The position numbers were made by a program, and so were the translations under genes. This document shows, one piece after another, positions 3,525 through 33,648 of a stretch of DNA of 64,000 bases. Within the stretch, counting starts at the first letter, position 1, and each line of letters starts with the position of its first letter. Under the pieces are notes generated by a model. The model was not told the DNA's origin and did no database searches. It was given only the letters and a program-made list of their open reading frames with translations. Source of the stretch: Cucumis sativus (taxonomy: Eukaryota; Streptophyta; Magnoliopsida; Cucurbitales; Cucurbitaceae); the NCBI RefSeq assembly GCF_000004075.3, contig NC_026658.2, positions 22,928,075-22,992,074 of the forward strand, written 5' to 3'.

Positions 3525-4135
3525 CAGTTGTGATATACTTGTATTATATGTATTAGTTGGTTAATATACTTACTACGTGATTTTCATTTTTTCAAATTTT
3601 ATGCAGTTCATTAGAATATTATTAAGTATATGAACGATGTAACTCAGTGTATCATTATCAAGTATATCAACAATATATTATTAAAGCATATCAGTAAAGT
3701 GAATCATTATCAAGTATATGAATAGAGTTTACAAGTGTATATCAATAGCATATCAAGTGTATAAGTAGAACTTCAAGCATATCAAGTCCATTTAATCAAT
3801 CAATTGTATAAGTGAAGAATACTAAATGTATATGTAATGTATCAGGTGTATCAAACATATATTAGTATATTTCGATATCGAGTGTATTAAAGAGTATCAT
3901 GCACATCAAGTGTATCAAGTGTAATATCAATGGGTATATTAGATGTATCAGACGTTTATTAGGTGTATCAGACTTGTATAAGATGTATCAAACGTATATT
4001 AGTAACAAGGGCATTTGGAAAATTTTACCTCTTGATGTGTGCAGAACTTCATTTTTGCCATTTTCGTAAGTAATAAAATGTGTGTACTATGAACTTAATT
4101 ATTATAACTTATTTTGCCATTTTCGCAATTGCCCT
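3525..4135 (+). repeat. Dispersed repeat with GTGTATCAAG minisatellite, copy 1
   Basis: This segment is repeated in the same orientation at 9405-9822. Both begin with TTGATATACTTRTATTATATG-like sequence, carry an array of variants of GTGTATCAAGTGTATCAGG, and end with AACAAGGGCATYTG followed by a short unique tail ending in GCCATTTTYGCAAWTGCCC. Copy 1 has the longer array (about 3640-4010). No coding capacity is seen. It abuts the left arm of the defensin inverted repeat. Confidence 0.75.
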
Positions 4136-4244
4136 TAAATATATATTGAAAAAGTTGTAAAATTATAATTTCCAAATAAACTTTATGTAGTTAATCATGG
4201 GTTTATAATAAAATTATTGAAATAGAAAATTAGGAGGTTGAACA

Positions 4245-4622
4245 TCAACACTTGTGTACACAAAGACAACTATGAGGACCAGCGCATGTTGCAGACTTTC
4301 CTGGCAATAGATGATAATTAAGACTACACAAGAAATAACATTGTGAATCGACGCAAGGTGTTGCATCAGACAACGGCAAAACAGTCGAGCATCCTTGGGC
4401 GCTTACCGTCACCATTTTCTCTCCTTCAATAATACAAACGAACACTTCAAAAACAAATTTTAAATATAAAAGAAAACGAGATATGTAAAATTCAATTGAA
4501 ATACAAAATTAATGGTTAATATAAACAAGTTCTCTTCTAAAACATTAATGATAGGAAAAGACTTGCCTACCATTGAAAATGAGGAATAGAACAACTATGA
4601 CCGAAATAATGTTAGATTTCAT
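4245..4622 (-). CDS. Defensin-like secreted cysteine-rich peptide, left copy
   Basis: Two exons: 4622-4571 (52 nt, 17 codons plus one base) and 4444-4245 (200 nt), with a phase-1 GT-AG intron at 4570-4445. The 83-residue product starts MKSNIISVIVVLFLIFN, a typical hydrophobic secretion signal split from the mature part by the intron, as in most plant defensin-like genes. The mature region has eight cysteines in the order C..C....C-x3-C..C..C-x-C-x3-C (TPCVDSQCYFLC, then HSCLCVHKC), the cysteine-stabilised alpha-beta arrangement. Probably secreted, with an antimicrobial or signalling role, but the target cannot be told from sequence. It differs from the right copy only by two conservative changes in the signal and pro-region. 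The short exons make it easy to miss in automatic annotation. Confidence 0.8.
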
Positions 4623-5394
4623 TTTTTCGGTTTTCTTTCGAGATAAATTTTTGCTAGCATATAAGTATTGCTTTCTTTTGATCATTACAATATATATATA
4701 TATCACGACGATGATAGGCATCTAAAAACCATTTTTCATTTTGGTAGCTAATTTAATATACAATCTTTTTCTTGTTTTAATTTTACTAATTATTATAATT
4801 TCTTTAGCATATTTATACTTATTCATGTACATACAGATATATCAAATGTTTCATATTTAATTTTATATGATTAATTTCTTTTTATAGTATTATTTACTTA
4901 ACACATATAATAAGTAAATAAAAAGATATTTCTAATCCGATAAGAAAAAGGTCTTTAAATGGATTCTATTCTTATAAGGGACAAACAATGAATCCATTCA
5001 AAGACCTTTCTCTTATGAGATTAGAAATATCTTTTTATTTACTTATTATATATGCTAAGTAGATAAAGCTATAAAAAGAAATTAATCATATAAAATTAAA
5101 TATGGAACATTTGATATAGCCATATGTACATGAATAAGTATATATATGCTAAAGAAATTATAATGTATGTACATGAATAAGTATATATATGCTAAATAAA
5201 TTATAATAATTTGAACCATACAAAGTAAAAATAAAATCGGAAAAAGATTGTATATTAAAATAGTTACCAAAATTTAAAAATAAAAAAGGCTTTTAGATGC
5301 TTATCAACATCGTGATACATATATATTGTAATGATCAAAAGAAAGCATTACTCATATGCTAGCAAGAACTTATCTTGAAAGAAAAATAGAAAAA

Positions 5395-5773
5395 ATGAAG
5401 TCTAACATTATTTCGGTCGTAGTTGTTCTATTTCTTATTTTCAATGGTAGGCACCTCCTTCCCCATCATTACAGTTTTAGAAGAGATTTTGTTTATATTA
5501 ACAATTAATTTTTTTATTTCAATTGAATTTTACATATCTCGTTTTCTTTTATATTTAAAATTTGTTTTTGAAGTGTTCATTTGTATTATTGAAGGAGAGA
5601 AAATGGTGACGGTAAGCGCCCAAGGATGCTCGACTGTTTTGCCGTTGTCTGATGCAACACCTTGCGTCGATTCACAATGCTATTTCTTGTGTAGTCTTAA
5701 TTATCATCTATTGCCAGGAAAGTCTGCAACATGTGCTGGTCCTCATAGCTGTCTTTGTGTACACAAGTGTTGA
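5395..5773 (+). CDS. Defensin-like secreted cysteine-rich peptide, right copy
   Basis: Mirror copy of the gene at 4245-4622. Exon 1 is 5395-5446 and exon 2 is 5574-5773, with a phase-1 intron at 5447-5573. Splicing joins AATG to TGTTCATT, giving LIFNVFICIIEGEK and an 83-residue precursor. The signal peptide is MKSNIISVVVVLFLIFN and the mature peptide carries the same eight cysteines, C-x3-C and C-x-C signatures. The mature sequence is identical to the left copy. Both reading frames, splice sites and stops are intact. Reading straight through the intron would give a longer spurious protein from 5423. Expression is unknown; the two genes share the roughly 770-bp region between their starts. Confidence 0.8.
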
Positions 5774-5872
5774 TGTTCAACCTCCTAATTTTCTATTTCA
5801 ATAATTTCATTATAAACTCATAATTGACTACATAAAGTTTATTTGGAAATTATAATTTTACCACTTTTTTCA

Positions 5873-8800
5873 ACCCTCCACTTTTGTTTCAGATATGGAT
5901 ACATATATTTGTTTCACCAAGCTAATTTTTTAATTAAAGCATTAATTCAAGGGTTTTGTGTGGATGATTAGTGTCACACCCCCTTCTAGGTCACTCGCTT
6001 GGAATCTTAAAGGTGGTGTGATGTCGACTCAAAGCATGCATTCTCCCTTGAAACAACTTCAGCTGACCCTTAACTTGAAAACATAAACATTTGCAAACGA
6101 AAGTCTTTAAACTAAGAAACAACCCAAAATTGTAGTGTAACCCATTTGGAAATGACTTTAAAAAATACCAAGTAAAATGTATAAGACATGGAAGTATAAA
6201 TTTTCATAAAACATAATACTTCTAATAAATCATTTGCTTTCATGACTGAAAACTAATTGGCAATTTACAATCAGTACCTGGGAAAAAGGGAACACATTTT
6301 GAAAGGGCAAGTTGATAGACTTAATGAACAACAGTTCTATAAAACAAGTTTTTATAAATAGTTTAACATAACATTTATCAATAAATAGTTTAACATAACA
6401 TTTATCAATAAATAGTCATTTCATGATATGAAACTTGACACATTGAACTTTTGTATAGCTTTTGGAAGACAATAACGCATAGCCACAGGCAGTATTAAAC
6501 CTCTTCGTTCTAAGATGAAACAATCGATAGGAAACAACTTTCATTGTAATCCTCCTTTTTTTAAGGCATAAAAATATACCCTTTCTGATAGCCCTTAAAC
6601 TATAGACTTGTCAAACCCTACCGACAACAATATATACCGACTAGGAGTAGGAGCAAACCAAATTGTGTAATAACTAAGAAGAACCTATATACTCGATTTT
6701 ATGAAAGGAAGAGGAATTCTTAAAAGCAAAATCGGTACATTGAATGCCCAAGTTGTATAGAATAAGAAATATCATTGCTTGAAGAACGTTGGAAGCCTAA
6801 AGATACAAGTCCAACTTTTTCATTCCATTAAACATAACATTCATGAGGTTGAAGAACAAAACTCCTAAGATCTTACTTCCATCAATCACGATGTTCACTT
6901 TCATTTCAGTCCTAAACACAGTCATCAGTAATCATATGTAGGGGGCACTATTAATATTAAAAAAAAGTAACTGTAGTAGATGAGATATGAACCCAAGACA
7001 AGTTTTAAAGAAGGAGGGCACAAGCACTATCTCAAAGGTAGAATATGAGAAAAACAAAGCATTATTTAAGATATATTGTAATTTAACGCTTCAAAATTAA
7101 TATTAAAATACAAAAATCGGGAATGTGAGAAGGGGGGCACGTGCTCCCCCTGGCCCCTTAATAGATCTGTTCATGGTCATACTAGTTATGGACATGATAG
7201 TAACTAATTGGATTGTCCGTTGTTCAAAAAACAATGAGGCCAACAAACATTGAACCCACCCGATTCAACAAGATTCAATTTCACAAAAAAATGTTTATCA
7301 AGAAGTTAGTTTTTTATGTGTTAATTATATACCTAGAATTCTACTCATTGTGCTCCTAAAACACCTAAACAATAAGAACAAAGTTTAAGAGGCAATGCTT
7401 AGTTGGAAAACCTTAATCGAACTACAAAAATGCCCAACAGACACGTTCTTATCTTCAAAATAATATCAAAACTCAATTCAAACACTTTTAATCAATCTCA
7501 CACTACAATTAGTGAATTTTCATGCATTATAAACTACAATTAGAGTTGCAAAAGTAGAACCTTAAATAGAAAAGAAAACTTTGGAAGTTAAATTAATCGA
7601 TAATGTTTTGAAATTACTCTTTATCAATAACTCACTTGATATTGACAATGCATATAAAAAATAACTGAAATAGCAAGACAACCACCACATGAACAAAACA
7701 TATCAATTTTTTAACAAATATGAACCTTTAATGTTGATGAATTTGGGACTAAAAGAAACCATCTTCTTTTAACAAACCATTCCTTCATGATAATAAAACT
7801 TGAGGCAAAGTTAAATTTGATATCAAACAAATATCATAAATAAAAAGAATGAAAAAAAGATACAAATTGACATGGAAATTGAACAAAAGATTCTCAAACA
7901 ATAACCATCAAAAGTGGAAAAGTATTATTGTAATTTATTTTGCTAGTAGATTTGTTTGTTTTATTGTAATTTGCTTTTTATTTATTTTTAATTTAAAATT
8001 AATTATTAATAAATACATATATATTAATAATTTTAACCTTTTCTTTCCAATTAATTATATCATTAACAATTTTCTAAAACCATTCACATCTCTCTATCTT
8101 CCACCTATTTCATATTAACTATTTTGTAATTATTTCAACCTTTCAAATTCTTTCCGTTTTCAAATTTTTAGGTATAAATATTCAATTTTTTTTTTATTTT
8201 TTTTCATGTTCAAGTCACAACAAAAAGTTGTGTGTGAAGAAATTAGTCTTCCAATAAGTTCAAATGAAGATTTGTGAGCCAAGGCTACAAAAACCCTCTG
8301 TTTTATGGTTGCTGCTGAGGTTACACACAATTTGAGGGTGAGGGGTTGTCTTCTGAGTTTATGTCATCATTTTGGTGCTGCTTGCAAACTTGAAGAGAGA
8401 TTCCTATGTTGTTTCTTAGTCACTCTTGTTTTTGTCTAACATTATAAATAGAGAAAAAAATTGGATAAGCGAGAAGGAAAAAAAATATTGTTGTTTAGGC
8501 CTTATGGAAATTGAATAATAAGAAAATTTATTTTTTGTTAGCCGATTATTTTCTTTTTATCTATTGGTTTGGTCATCTTAATGTGTTGAAATGATCTTGA
8601 TTTAAGTGAAAAACATATTTTTCTTCTAGAGCGTATTATTCAAAATTTAAATTTTAAATGTTATTTTCTTGGGCAGTCATTGAATTTATCCCAAAATTAT
8701 TTTTGTTATTTTAAACATTCGATATGTAATTGATACATGAAAAAAGTTTTACTTATCAATATAAAGCTTATTGAATGGATTGTTTCATAGTCATACTATC

Positions 8801-9404
8801 AAATTCTTTATATTGTTTAGCTCATTCTATTTATACATGCATATAACAAGTCTCGAGGAAAAACTCTCTCTATAAATAAAGTTCAAAAATGTATTTTCAA
8901 AAATTATTTTAAAAAATCATGAGTAAATAAATATAGTTTCATTCTATTTGTGTGAAAATTAACGTCAAACTGCATAGGATAGCATTTTGAGAATATGATA
9001 TAGCAATTATAGCACATTGCTTTAGAATTTTGCAAATATGACAAAAATTTTATTTCTCAATCTTAAATTTGATATTATTCCTAAACTATCATTCAATAAC
9101 TTATTTCTTTTCCATTTATTTATATATGCTCCCACTTTTTAAGGCCCTAATTATTTGTTTATTCTTATACTAGAAAAATTATTTATTTTTTATGTCTTAA
9201 TCCTAATTTTAAAATATCAATAGTACAATAATTGCAATAAGAAATATAATATCATGGTTGTTGATCGGAGTAATTTAACTTTATTTGTGATTTTTTTTTC
9301 TTTACTTTCTTCAATGTGTATTTTGAGTTGAATCTAATTCCAAATGATTTTGTTTTATTTTTTTATATTATTTTTTTGTTTTACTTTGTCTCAGTTTCGT
9401 ATAT
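5873..9404. other. AT-rich intergenic DNA with undefined repeats
   Basis: I see no gene here. From about 5972 a segment starts TGTCACACCCCC, which looks like the edge of an LTR, but no partner end was found. A 27-bp unit is duplicated at about 6350-6410 (TTTAACATAACATTTATCAA). Around 6940-7170 there is a repeat-like block containing AGGGGGCAC and the near-palindrome GGGGGGCACGTGCTCCCCC. The short open frame at 7849-8118 is low-complexity. 8220-8430 is less AT-rich but has no convincing coding frame. Confidence 0.5.
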
Positions 9405-9822
9405 TAGTGTTATGATATACTTATATTATATGTATTAGTTGGTTAATATACTTATTACGTCATTTTTTGTTTTTCAAATTTTATGCAGTTCATTAGAGTA
9501 TTATTAAGTATCTGAATGATGTAACTCAGTCAATCAATTGTATAGGTGAAGAATACAAAATGTATCTGCAGTGTATCAGGTGTATCAAAGAGTATCAGGT
9601 GCATAATCAAATTTATCGGGTGTATCAAGTGTATCAATTGGTGTATTAGGTGTATCGAACGTGGATAAGGTGTATCAAACATATATTAGTAACAAGGGCA
9701 TCTGTGACATTTTACTTCTTGATGGGTGGGTTGGACTTCGTTTTTGCCATTTTTACAAATAATAAAATGTGTATGATATGAACTTAATTATTATAACTTA
9801 TTTTGTCATTTTTGCAAATGCC
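9405..9822 (+). repeat. Dispersed repeat with GTGTATCAAG minisatellite, copy 2
   Basis: Second, shorter direct copy of the repeat at 3525-4135. The array of GTGTATCAGG/GTGTATCAAG units spans about 9560-9690. The leading and trailing unique blocks match copy 1 closely, including ATTAGTAACAAGGGCAT and the AATAAAATGTGTRTRMTATGAAC tail. No coding capacity. Confidence 0.75.
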
Positions 9823-10228
9823 CCATTTTATTATCTCAAACTATATCATCTTGAATTGCGCTGATATTTATGAATCTCACTCCAACAACGAAATAGAAAA
9901 AGGTAAACAATATTTAAGAAAAAAAGAAAAAATAGTAAGTGACGTTGCAAACAAATGATTGGAGAATTGGATGGGTTGTAGATAGATGGGTAGAGCGATG
10001 GATGTATCCAAAAATTTGACTAATAAAATGAAACAACTACTCTAACGACACTTACACATATATACTATATGTTCAAGGGGCTCAATCCCTCCTCAACTTT
10101 ACGTTCCTTACAATTAGCTAGGTCTAGTGATAAATTTGGCTTCTAGCTAGCCTCCTTCACACCCAAGTTATAACTTTTTCCTCGATACCAAGTTATAACT
10201 TTTCAATTTGTCACTGCCTACTACATCC

Positions 10229-11838
10229 TTAGTTTCCTCCTGTTGTAGAGTTGCTCAAAACATCATCAATAAATTTTCCTAATGAGATGAAAGAGGATCC
10301 ACCTTCTATTACACTTTTTCTGCATTCTTCACTTTTTGTTTTCACTTTCTTCCTTATCTCATTTTTGTTGTTGTCCATCAACTTTCTAATTCCTCTTTCT
10401 ATCTCTTCTGCCATTATTATTGGGTTGGCTTGTTCTTTAAGTTCAATACAATAACTTATCTTGATCTCCACAGCCAATCCCAATTCTACCACCAGATCAA
10501 ATGCGTTGAATTGTTGCTCTGCATACATTGGCCATGTTGCCATCGGCACGCCATGCCACAAACTTTCCAACGTCGAGTTCCAACCACAATGTGATACGAA
10601 CCCACCTATGACCAAGAATTAAAATATCTGTATTAGTGTTTCAATTTTACAAAGACATCAATAAAAAATTGTATTTGAAGGATGTTTTCTTATATATACA
10701 TATATATACACTTAAGATATTTTCACTTCTAAATCCAAGTTGTAGGATCTTTACCTGTGGCTGGATGGCCTAATATCTCCACTTGCGGTGCCCAGCTGAT
10801 GACTCTCCCAATGTTCTGTGTTCGATCAAGAAATCCCTTAGGTAAGATGTCTTCAAAATTTGTATAGTCGATTGATGATTGAAACACATTCCCTGGTCGT
10901 CGAAGAGACCAAATGAAACGAACTCTACTTCTCTCAAGCGCTCGTGCAATCTCCTCCACCTGATCCTTTTTGAAAGCTCCTCTACTTCCAAAGCACAAAA
11001 ACACCACCGATGAAAGTGGTTGATCATCAAGCCACTTCAACACATCTCCATCATCCATAGTCTCAGTGTTCTTGTTCAAGTGCAAAACAGGTCCGACAGA
11101 ATACAAAGGTGGGAGTTGCAAAGAGGAGTCAGTTGACAAAGAAGATAACGCATGTGATTCCAGCTCCTCAAATGTATTGATAAGAACACCTTTTACATCA
11201 AATCTAATTCTTTTAGCTTGTTCATGAAACCAAACAGCAAAATTGTTAATAAAGAAGACACTTGGAATGGTTTTACTTGGAACTTGATTCACTAAACTTG
11301 GTACACTCAAATTAACATCTGAATCCTTCAATTGTTGAATTACCTCATTACTACTATTATCTTGTGTGTAGAGTTGTTCAAGATGTAAACTAAAAGCAAG
11401 ATAGGCAGCACAAGAAGTGTAGTACACATAAGAAGGGACCTTAAATTCGTTAGCTACATCAACCATGGTTGAGCAAAACGAGTCCAACACGAATCCAGCA
11501 AGATGGTTGGTGGAGGTAGTAAGAAAGGAGATAAGAGCTTGTTTGACATGGGGTTTGTAGCTTTCAAGAACTACTTCCAGGAAGAAACGGTTCCCATTGT
11601 TTGGGATATCAGGTAATTCAGGAAGGACAATGAATTGTATGGAGTTGTTGTTGGTAAGAGACTGTGCAGAAAGGGATTGAATATATTCATTAGCTTTGGG
11701 ATCAAGGGGTAGCTTAAAGGCAATCATTGTGACAGCAAGACGATGATCTCGAGCGAGGAGAGTATTTGCCATCTCAACCATGGAAGCAAGGTGACCAGAC
11801 CCCGGTATTGGTATGAAAACAAGCTCAAATTTCTTCAT
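10229..11838 (-). CDS. UDP-glycosyltransferase, group E (UGT71-like), intact, two exons
   Basis: Exon 1 is 11838-10755 and exon 2 is 10605-10229, giving 486 residues, normal for plant family-1 UGTs. These enzymes move glucose from UDP-glucose to small lipophilic acceptors (flavonoids, terpenoids, hormones) in the cytosol. Visible landmarks are the catalytic His16 in GSGHL, the activating Asp119 in [14 protein letters not shown] in the linker, and the 44-residue PSPG box at 349-392, starting [10 protein letters not shown], with HCGWNS and ending WPMYAEQ; the terminal Gln suggests UDP-glucose use. The intron (10754-10606, GT-AG, phase 1) lies inside the PSPG box between HPAT and GGF. The N-terminal sequence resembles UGT71 enzymes, but the acceptor cannot be predicted. 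It is the only intact member of the minus-strand array; both neighbours are broken. Confidence 0.9.
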
Positions 11839-12159
11839 TTGGAGCAGGCTTGCAGAGAAAACTAAAGGAAATGGGAGATATGTTTAGTTTGCAATGTGTA
11901 GAAGTAACTAATTGATGGGATTTGGTTGTGTTGTAGAAAGGAGAGAGAGTTTTGAAATGAAACCAAGTGGATAATGTTTATGGAAGATTGAATGGTTTGA
12001 ATTGCATGTGACATAATGATAGTGTTTATAAGAAGATATCCTTTTTTAACATTTTACAAGAATCAATCTCATATATTTTGTCATTTCTTTCTCATGGTGA
12101 AAGGATAAAAAAAAATTACACAACAGTCTCATATATTTTGATAAAAAAATGTTTTCAGT
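11839..12159 (-). promoter_or_regulatory. Upstream region of the intact UGT
   Basis: This stretch holds no gene. Its first 270 bp are shared with the region upstream of the broken copy at 775-1029. Specific promoter elements cannot be assigned with confidence. Confidence 0.4.
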
Positions 12160-12784: not shown

Positions 12785-13818
12785 CTGTGGCGGGATGGGC
12801 TAATATCTCCACTTGTGGTGCCCAACTGATGACTCTACCAACATTTTTGGTTCGGTCGAGAAACCCCTCGGGTAAGATGTCTTCAAAGTTTGTATAGTCT
12901 ATTGCTGTTTTCATCCCATTTTGTTCCAACGGTTGGCGGAGGGACCAAATGAAACAGTGCTCGTCCAATCTCCTCCACTTGGTCCTTCTCGAAGCTTCCT
13001 CGACTTCCAAAGCACAAAAACACAACCGATGGTGGAGGTTGGTCATCAAGCCACTTCAACACATCTACACGATCCATAGTCTCAATATTCTTTTTCAAGT
13101 GTAAAACAGGTCCAACAGAATACAAAGGTGGAAGTTGCAAAGAGGAGTCAGTAGACAAAGAATATATCACATGTGATTCCAACTCCTCAAATGTATTGAT
13201 GAGAATACCTTTCATTTCAGTTCTAAGTCTTTTAGTTTGTGCATGAATCCAAACAGCAACTTCGTTAATAAGGTAGAGACCAGAAATGACTTTACTTGGA
13301 ACTTGATTAACTAACCATGATGAACTCATCTTAACATTACTACTATTATTTTGTGTGTAAAGTTGTTCAAGAAGAATCGTAAAAGCAAGATTGCCAGCAC
13401 CAGAAGTGTAATAATACCCATAAGAAGGAACCTCAAACTCATTAGCTACATCAATCATGGTTGAACAGAATATATCCAACACAAAACCAGCAAGATGGTT
13501 GTTGGAGGCAGGGAGGAGATAATAGCTTGTTTGACGTGGGGTTTATAGATTTCAAGAGCTTCTCGTATAAATGCTTTGCCATCATCGTCTTTTGGGGGAG
13601 TTTGTAATTCCGGAAGGACAATGAATTGTATGGAGTTGTTGGTAAGAGACAATGCAGAAAGGGATTCAATATAATTCATTAGCTTTGGCATCATAGGCCG
13701 GTAGCCTCATGGCAATGAATGTGACAGCAAGACGATGATCTCGGGCTTGGAGAGTATTGGCCATCTCGAACATGGAAGCGAGGTGACCCCCATGCCGGTG
13801 CCGCTCAAATTTCTTCAT
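12785..13818 (-). pseudogene. UGT71-like pseudogene, exon 1 only
   Basis: The start codon is at 13818 (MKKFER) and the exon ends at 12785 with the same HPATG/GTAAGG splice donor as the intact gene. Most of exon 1 is recognisable, including [49 protein letters not shown] and [15 protein letters not shown]. It is broken: residues around the catalytic histidine are lost (KKFERHRHGGHLAS in place of [18 protein letters not shown]), at least three frame changes split the exon, and no exon 2 with the rest of the PSPG box follows before the next UGT. It cannot encode a working enzyme. Confidence 0.85.
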
Positions 13819-32205: not shown

Positions 32206-33648
32206 ATGGCGACGGCGGAGCTGGTTTTCGTCCCCACCTCGGGAGTCGGTCATCTCGTCTCCACCATCAAATTCATTACCCAATTCCTCAACCGTGACCC
32301 TCGATTCACCGCCACCATTCTCGTCTTCAAATACCCATTCACCCCGACGGCCACTGACGGAACCTCAGATCCGCCGCCGTCTAACCCCGCCATCGCTCCG
32401 ACCACGTCGCGTATTCGTATCATCCATCTCCCCCCTCCCTCCGATCCTCCTTCTCCCAAAATTTTATCCAAGTCCTTCGAACATTACTACTCTCTCTATA
32501 TCGCGAGCTACCGGACGCTGGTTAAAAACGCCATTGTTGACCTTGCCGTTCCGGTTGTTGGGTTGGTTGTTGATCTTTTCTGTACTCCCATGATCGATGT
32601 GGGTAATGAACTTGGCATCAATACGTATGTCTTCTTCACTTCCTGTGCTGGATTTCTCGGGTCGATGTTTCATCTTGAAACCCGCGATCGATGTGTCGGT
32701 GTGAAATTCGACGAATCGGAAGCTGATATGATAATTCCTGGTTACGCTCACCCAGTTCCGGTGAGGGTTTTGCCTCGTTATTCGTTTAACCGCTACGGAT
32801 TCGAGTCCATGGCAATTCACGCTCGGAAATTCAAGGAAGCGAAAGGAATCATCGTCAATACCTTTGCTGAGCTTGAACCTCATGCTTTCAGTTCATTATC
32901 TGAAGACGGAATCCCTCCGATTTATCCTGTGGGGCCGGTGGTGGACCTGGAAAGCGAAAATAGGCCAACACCAAATGAAAATCAAAGCAGTGAAATTAGG
33001 GTTTGGCTCGATAATCAGCCACCGTCATCAGTGGTGTTCTTGTGCTTTGGTAGTCGGGGAAGTTTCAGCCAACCCCAAGTAGTGGAAATAGCAAACGGTC
33101 TCGAAAGTAGCGGAGTGAGGTTCCTCTGGTCCTTGCGCCGGCCACCGCCGCCGCACAAGAAATTTGAATCTCCATCGGATTATGCCGATCCCGACGATGT
33201 CTTGCCGGAGGGATTCCAGGAGAGGGTTAAAGGGAAAGGAAGAGTCTGTGGGTGGGTTCGGCAAGTTGATGTTTTAGCCCACAAAGCCATTGGAGGCTTC
33301 GTTTCACACTGCGGATGGAACTCTGTTTTGGAAAGCATTTGGCATGCGGTGCCGCTCGTGACTTGGCCGCAATATGCTGAGCAACAGTTGAACGCTTTCA
33401 TGATGGTTAGAGAATTAGGATTAGCAGTGGAGTTGACGATGGATTACCACAGGGAAGGTGGATCCCTGGTGACTGCAGATCAGATTGAGAGAGCAGTTCA
33501 TCGTTTGATGGACGGCGATGAAGCAGAGGAGGTGAGGAAGAGAATGGAAGAAATTAGCAAGAAAAGTAGAGAAGCTCTCGTTCCTGGTGGTTCCTCTTAC
33601 ATTTCATTTGGGAATTTGATTGATGATATGTTGGCTAGTTCTGTTTAG
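32206..33648 (+). CDS. UDP-glycosyltransferase, group E (UGT71-like), intronless
   Basis: A 480-residue single-exon UGT starting MATAELVFVPTSGVGHLVST, with catalytic His16 and activating Asp123 (VVDLFCTPM). [14 protein letters not shown] leads into the PSPG box at 350-393, with HCGWNS and WPQYAEQ; the final Gln fits UDP-glucose as donor. It differs from the array at 1-16 kb in having no intron at the PSPG box and in lying on the opposite strand, so it is an older paralogue and not a recent tandem copy. The PSPG start is WVRQVDVLAH, where almost all plant enzymes read WAPQ; Arg352 replaces a near-invariant proline. The frame is otherwise intact and codon use is more GC-rich than in the array copies. 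Acceptor unknown. Confidence 0.92.
   Translation: MATAELVFVPTSGVGHLVSTIKFITQFLNRDPRFTATILVFKYPFTPTATDGTSDPPPSNPAIAPTTSRIRIIHLPPPSDPPSPKILSKSFEHYYSLYIASYRTLVKNAIVDLAVPVVGLVVDLFCTPMIDVGNELGINTYVFFTSCAGFLGSMFHLETRDRCVGVKFDESEADMIIPGYAHPVPVRVLPRYSFNRYGFESMAIHARKFKEAKGIIVNTFAELEPHAFSSLSEDGIPPIYPVGPVVDLESENRPTPNENQSSEIRVWLDNQPPSSVVFLCFGSRGSFSQPQVVEIANGLESSGVRFLWSLRRPPPPHKKFESPSDYADPDDVLPEGFQERVKGKGRVCGWVRQVDVLAHKAIGGFVSHCGWNSVLESIWHAVPLVTWPQYAEQQLNAFMMVRELGLAVELTMDYHREGGSLVTADQIERAVHRLMDGDEAEEVRKRMEEISKKSREALVPGGSSYISFGNLIDDMLASSV

Follow-up and report, generated by a model that had tools for sequence, protein, structure and literature searches.

A head-to-head inverted duplication on contig C4 of the cucumber genome is a true, tight palindrome that carries two intact defensin-like genes, and it appears to have arisen as a side effect of gene duplication. 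In the reading that we prefer, to which we give a probability of roughly 80%, the locus belongs to an ordinary birth-and-death cluster in which two functional, secreted defensin-like genes, set on an old inverted duplication, would be transcribed divergently.

A tight palindrome on contig C4

The window, i.e., the whole stretch of 64,000 nt that was analysed, corresponds to C4:22928075-22992074, and the genome searched comprised 226.6 Mb in 88 contigs (C2, 24.8 Mb; C4, 26.8 Mb). Positions are those of the window unless a contig is named. The following features were delimited:

4007..4136, no strand: MITE-like element in high copy number, adjoining the left arm; termini AAGGGCA and TGCCCTT by eye
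4149..4966, no strand: left palindrome arm (self-comparison of the window, arm alignment)
4245..4423, minus strand: left gene exon 2, eight-cysteine peptide and stop, PF07333 at 24.7 bits
4424..4570, minus strand: left gene intron, GT-AG, acceptor revised against relatives
4571..4622, minus strand: left gene exon 1, hydrophobic signal-like start read from the translation
4623..5394, no strand: divergent promoter region between the start codons (alignment of copies)
4967..4989, no strand: 23-nt spacer between the arms (spacer comparison among loci)
4990..5869, no strand: right palindrome arm (self-comparison of the window, arm alignment)
5395..5446, plus strand: right gene exon 1, hydrophobic signal-like start read from the translation
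5447..5594, plus strand: right gene intron, GT-AG, acceptor revised against relatives
5595..5773, plus strand: right gene exon 2, eight-cysteine peptide and stop, PF07333 at 24.7 bits

The palindrome spans about 1.7 kb in total, and its arms are 86.1% identical including gaps over 882 alignment columns, with substitutions at 58 of 815 aligned sites (7%) plus indels. The best arm-to-arm match reached 1069 bits, while 100 dinucleotide shuffles of 4147-5872, used as a control, gave at most 28.3 bits (mean 15.2), which excludes chance as the source of the palindrome. The right arm also carries a 43-nt tandem duplication (5123-5207) that none of the six other aligned copies has. A previous sequence-only reading of this DNA had proposed that two intact defensin-like genes lie head to head in an inverted duplication around a spacer of about 23 bp; the arm alignment, the shuffles and the gene models confirmed this, and the spacer measured 23 nt.

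Near the pair, dispersed sequence was limited to the MITE-like element and the 3' flank beyond about 6100. The element gave 545 first-look candidates, and the best 40 of these 545 were scored and all matched. Related direct repeats flank the C4 segment at 3527-4134 and 9409-9823 (91% over 128 nt, 72% over 341 nt), and by eye the same MITE-like element is recognisable in each of them. Downstream of the right gene, the 3' flank (6100-6990) is partly a dispersed repeat with 41 matches (best 40 of 155 candidates); among the matches listed, five lie in the gene family's own loci and most of the others fall within 6100-6622. A foldback transposon was considered and rejected, as sequences matching exon 2 (7) or the promoter (11) were confined to the C4 locus and one C2 cluster among the best candidates scored. 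Open reading frames around the pair, at 484-984, 10729-11883, 12883-13542 and 32206-33648, resemble plant UDP-glycosyltransferase sequences.

Gene structure and the predicted peptide

Translation of the right gene starts at 5395 (plus strand) and that of the left gene at 4622 (minus strand), and both genes keep the ATG, GT donor, AG acceptor, eight cysteines and stop. Each encodes 76 residues, and the only difference between the two products lies within the hydrophobic start, leaving the mature peptide the same. Two candidate acceptors, both AG and in frame, lie 21 nt apart in each gene. The earlier of them, which had been chosen in the sequence-only reading (introns 4445-4570 and 5447-5573), is probably 21 nt too early, since relatives on C1 and C7 match the later site; by eye, the later acceptor is the counterpart of those in one C7 relative (L030) and one C1 relative (L022). 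The true introns are thus probably 5447-5594 and 4570-4424. By eye, each of the seven aligned copies has a TATATA-like stretch some 70 nt ahead of its ATG. As both start codons lie outward of the centre with this stretch upstream, the expected transcripts diverge and do not cross the centre. Because the genes are short and split, annotation may miss them.

Both products matched the Pfam family SLR1-BP (PF07333) at 24.7 bits against a curated cut-off of 22.7, that is, by a margin of only 2 bits, which shrinks to 0.9 (23.6 bits) with the earlier acceptor. Counted by hand, the cysteine spacing is C-x11-C-x4-C-x3-C-x13-C-x5-C-x1-C-x3-C; eight cysteines with CxxxC plus CxC near the end is what we take to be the SLR1-BP/LCR pattern. 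The gene models, built from the sequence only, likewise have the layout of this family, with two exons, a hydrophobic start on the first and eight cysteines. Single-sequence AlphaFold2 prediction for 50 residues of the mature part gave a best model with a pLDDT of 86.6 and the order strand-helix-strand-strand; two of the five models were confident and three had a pLDDT of 46-52. When this fold was compared with the PDB by Foldseek, plant defensins ranked first and second at E values of 0.46 and 0.60, unrelated proteins were interspersed with plant defensins further down, and none of the 338 matches reached an E value of 0.001. A PDB sequence search returned a single match, a Defensin-2 (E 0.79). 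The designation "defensin-like" is based on the gene structure, the cysteine content and the profile match; the predicted fold adds weak support. A protein search gave one match from one candidate: P0001, a reading of a copy of this family, is 63% identical across the entire query and is encoded on a contig of 740 bases that is probably plant DNA within a metagenome; because the P0001 sequence runs through the modelled intron, it provides no cross-species comparison.

Copies on C2 and distant relatives

At least seven close copies of exon 2 were found at five loci (all seven candidates): the left and right C4 genes (C4L, C4R), a second head-to-head pair on C2 (C2pL and C2pR, C2:7116238-7118485) and three further C2 copies (C2a, C2b and C2c, at about C2:7133.6, 7147.1 and 7152.7 kb). 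The reading frame is intact in six of the seven; in the other, C2pL, a frameshift towards the end of exon 2 leaves the gene without its final three cysteines. Homology between the C4 segment and the C2 cluster extends over approximately 4146..9181. Two fragments of about 260 nt, each comprising promoter sequence and the beginning of exon 1 but no adjacent match to exon 2, sit downstream of C2pR (C2:7119546-7119806) and C2a (C2:7135021-7135278). More distant relatives comprise one copy on C7 (33% identity) and eight on C1 (45% identity), the latter being same-strand exons with equal scores within 28 kb (C1:29243775-29271290, L022-L029).

History of the palindrome

Remains of a second arm were sought at the five loci by comparing each locus's right arm with the 1500 nt upstream of the spacer. 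The second arm measured 818 nt at C4, 1096 nt at the C2 pair (C2p), 145 nt at C2a and 148 nt at C2b, where some 100 nt separate the remnant from the spacer, and none was detected in these 1500 nt at C2c. The earlier statement that tight palindromes decay fits three of the four C2 loci: one arm survives at each, while of the other there remain 145 nt at C2a and 148 nt at C2b and nothing that was detected at C2c. The second arms of C2a and C2b end at the same point and their upstream segments are 98% alike, suggesting that the truncation was probably one event.

An exact 19-mer of the spacer is shared by C4, C2p, C2a and C2b, and it is inverted at C4 when orientation is read from the arm that bears the long 3' flank; by eye, C2c shows a spacer orientation similar to that at the other C2 loci. 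Given this shared spacer, one old palindrome is the simplest reading, and the palindrome probably predates the C4 copy. Its centre at C4 would then have been inverted by arm-to-arm recombination or another rearrangement. Trees did not resolve the order of duplication, with none of four inner branches fully supported for the promoter and one of four (C2a with C2b) for the gene body. Against a single old palindrome, the four arms of the two full palindromes group by locus, C4 with C4 and C2p with C2p (48/79 promoter, 85/89 gene body), and this grouping, weaker in the promoter, would also fit separate origins or conversion within each locus. Separate origins of the C4 and C2p palindromes appear unlikely because the spacer is shared. 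Plant sequences accumulate roughly 7e-9 substitutions per site per year, a rate at which a divergence of 8% would correspond to about 6 million years, as a rough guide only.

Constraint and possible gene conversion

The two C4 genes differ by six synonymous changes (dS 0.127) and one non-synonymous change (dN 0.006). Assuming no conversion between the arms, the probability of this 6:1 split is 0.00075 if both genes evolved neutrally and 0.012 if one did, and the excess of synonymous differences suggests that both genes are under constraint. The pooled pN/pS was 0.29 over 15 non-independent pairs of the six intact copies (C2pL excluded). Mean pairwise divergence by region was as follows: promoter, 8.3%; intron (limits of the earlier acceptor), 5.8%; positions 5574-5617, 7.1%; exon 2 from 5618, 2.0%; 3' UTR, 6.0%; and 3' flank (without C4L), 12.8%.

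Between the C2p arms, five of 526 sites differed in the gene body vs. 24 of 272 in the promoter (Fisher test, 6e-8), and intron plus UTR (3/241) also differed from the promoter (9e-5). Fewer differences in the gene body than in the promoter were found at P < 0.05 in six of eight pairs, indicating that constraint explains part of the C2p contrast. At non-coding sites, the C2p pair was the only one of seven pairs tested to fall below 0.05, with C2pR-C2c at 0.051, and we infer that gene conversion may have caused the low-divergence tract between the C2p arms. At C4, homogenisation of the arms was considered and rejected, the promoter differing at 34 of 345 sites between the C4 arms vs. 25 of 352 between C4R and C2a; likewise, conversion was not seen at C4 in the comparison of promoter (27/289) with intron plus UTR (17/242; P 0.35).

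The five loci can be read as one apparent palindrome, present in full at two, with a second arm of about 150 nt at two and an undetected one at the fifth. With the inverted spacer and the conversion-like tract, they document in nature, on a small scale, how palindromes of this tight kind survive or decay, and this record is datable in related species.

Gene duplication, decay or a source of small RNAs

Under the preferred birth-and-death reading, an old inverted duplication within the cluster would have set two genes of the SLR1-BP/LCR type head to head, and each arm, having its own promoter, would support divergent transcription and thereby an added dose of secreted peptide. The head-to-head unit of the C2 cluster would have been copied to C4, in the direction that we infer, and on C2 would have been duplicated further, with one arm mostly or wholly lost in three copies. 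Expression and secretion of the C4 peptide are predictions, and it might act in defence or in pollen-pistil signalling. Palindromic artefacts occur in long-read data, and an assembly or sequencing error such as a hairpin read is conceivable as the origin of the C4 palindrome, but we regard this as very unlikely, because the arms have diverged by 7% plus indels and C2 holds a palindrome of the same kind; the 43-nt duplication confined to one C4 arm and the partial second arms kept at C2a and C2b likewise speak against it. That the C4 genes are decaying remnants without function is improbable: the frameshift of C2pL indicates that not every copy is maintained, and C4L has lost its downstream flank and adjoins the MITE-like element, but six of the seven frames are intact and the differences between the C4 genes are six to one synonymous.

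The sequence-only reading also suggested that the pair may be its own silencing source. In this view, which we consider unlikely, a transcript that begins within or outside one arm would run through the centre, fold into a hairpin and be diced into siRNAs that silence the C4 and C2 copies. The single strand of 4500-5500 folds into one long hairpin at -522 kcal/mol (native sequence alone), although such folding in silico is expected of any inverted repeat. The longest perfect arm-to-arm runs measure 100 and 64 nt. The two C4 arms share 251 identical 21-mers, and each of the five C2 copies contains between 93 and 188 of these. Against this, both genes are modelled outward from the centre, so that a hairpin requires a special read-through transcript, and both appear constrained. 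No structured-RNA family was matched in 3900-6100 at Rfam gathering scores, which is weak evidence. A precedent for read-through siRNAs is given by VIM4-VIM2 of Arabidopsis Cvi, which has 100% identity over the first exon and first intron (PMC13213937), whereas the C4 arms are 86% identical overall. A more elaborate variant is a dual-use locus, in which divergent transcription yields peptide and occasional read-through hairpins yield siRNAs that hit all seven members and set the dose, the inverted spacer being a trace of recombination that keeps the arms pairable; this seems decidedly unlikely. The birth-and-death reading remains the one that we favour.

Comparison with known systems

The C4 pair resembles the DEFL/LCR genes of PF07333 in its profile match, its two-exon, eight-cysteine layout and its clustered duplicates, and differs from them in that its copies form a tight head-to-head palindrome. 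In SP11/SCR dominance in the Brassicaceae, a locus other than the peptide gene supplies the small RNA. This system likewise involves a small cysteine-rich peptide gene, there under small-RNA control (PMC8268441). Among the literature matches listed, no title or abstract opening described a palindromic defensin-like pair, and the passages considered from a study of cucumber pollen tubes named no cucumber defensin-like gene (PMC9845374). In Arabidopsis, the defensin-like AtLURE1 genes (CRP810_1) form tandem arrays that arose by duplication and/or conversion (PMC3525529); they are similar to the C4 and C2 genes as a local group of recently duplicated defensin-like genes that includes a pseudogene, whereas the peptides are other ones and a pollen-tube attractant role has been shown there, the C4 peptide being a predicted one.

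A structural parallel exists with VIM4-VIM2 and PAI4-PAI1 of Arabidopsis Cvi, both inverted gene pairs, and the C4 locus has the structural part of this type, namely an inverted pair, a short centre and foldable arms. VIM4-VIM2 is a head-to-head palindrome of about 6.4 kb with a 50-bp non-palindromic centre, and siRNAs and the read-through that produces them were shown there (PMC13213937). For the C4 palindrome, both would be predictions from the sequence; it measures about 1.7 kb and its arms are less alike.
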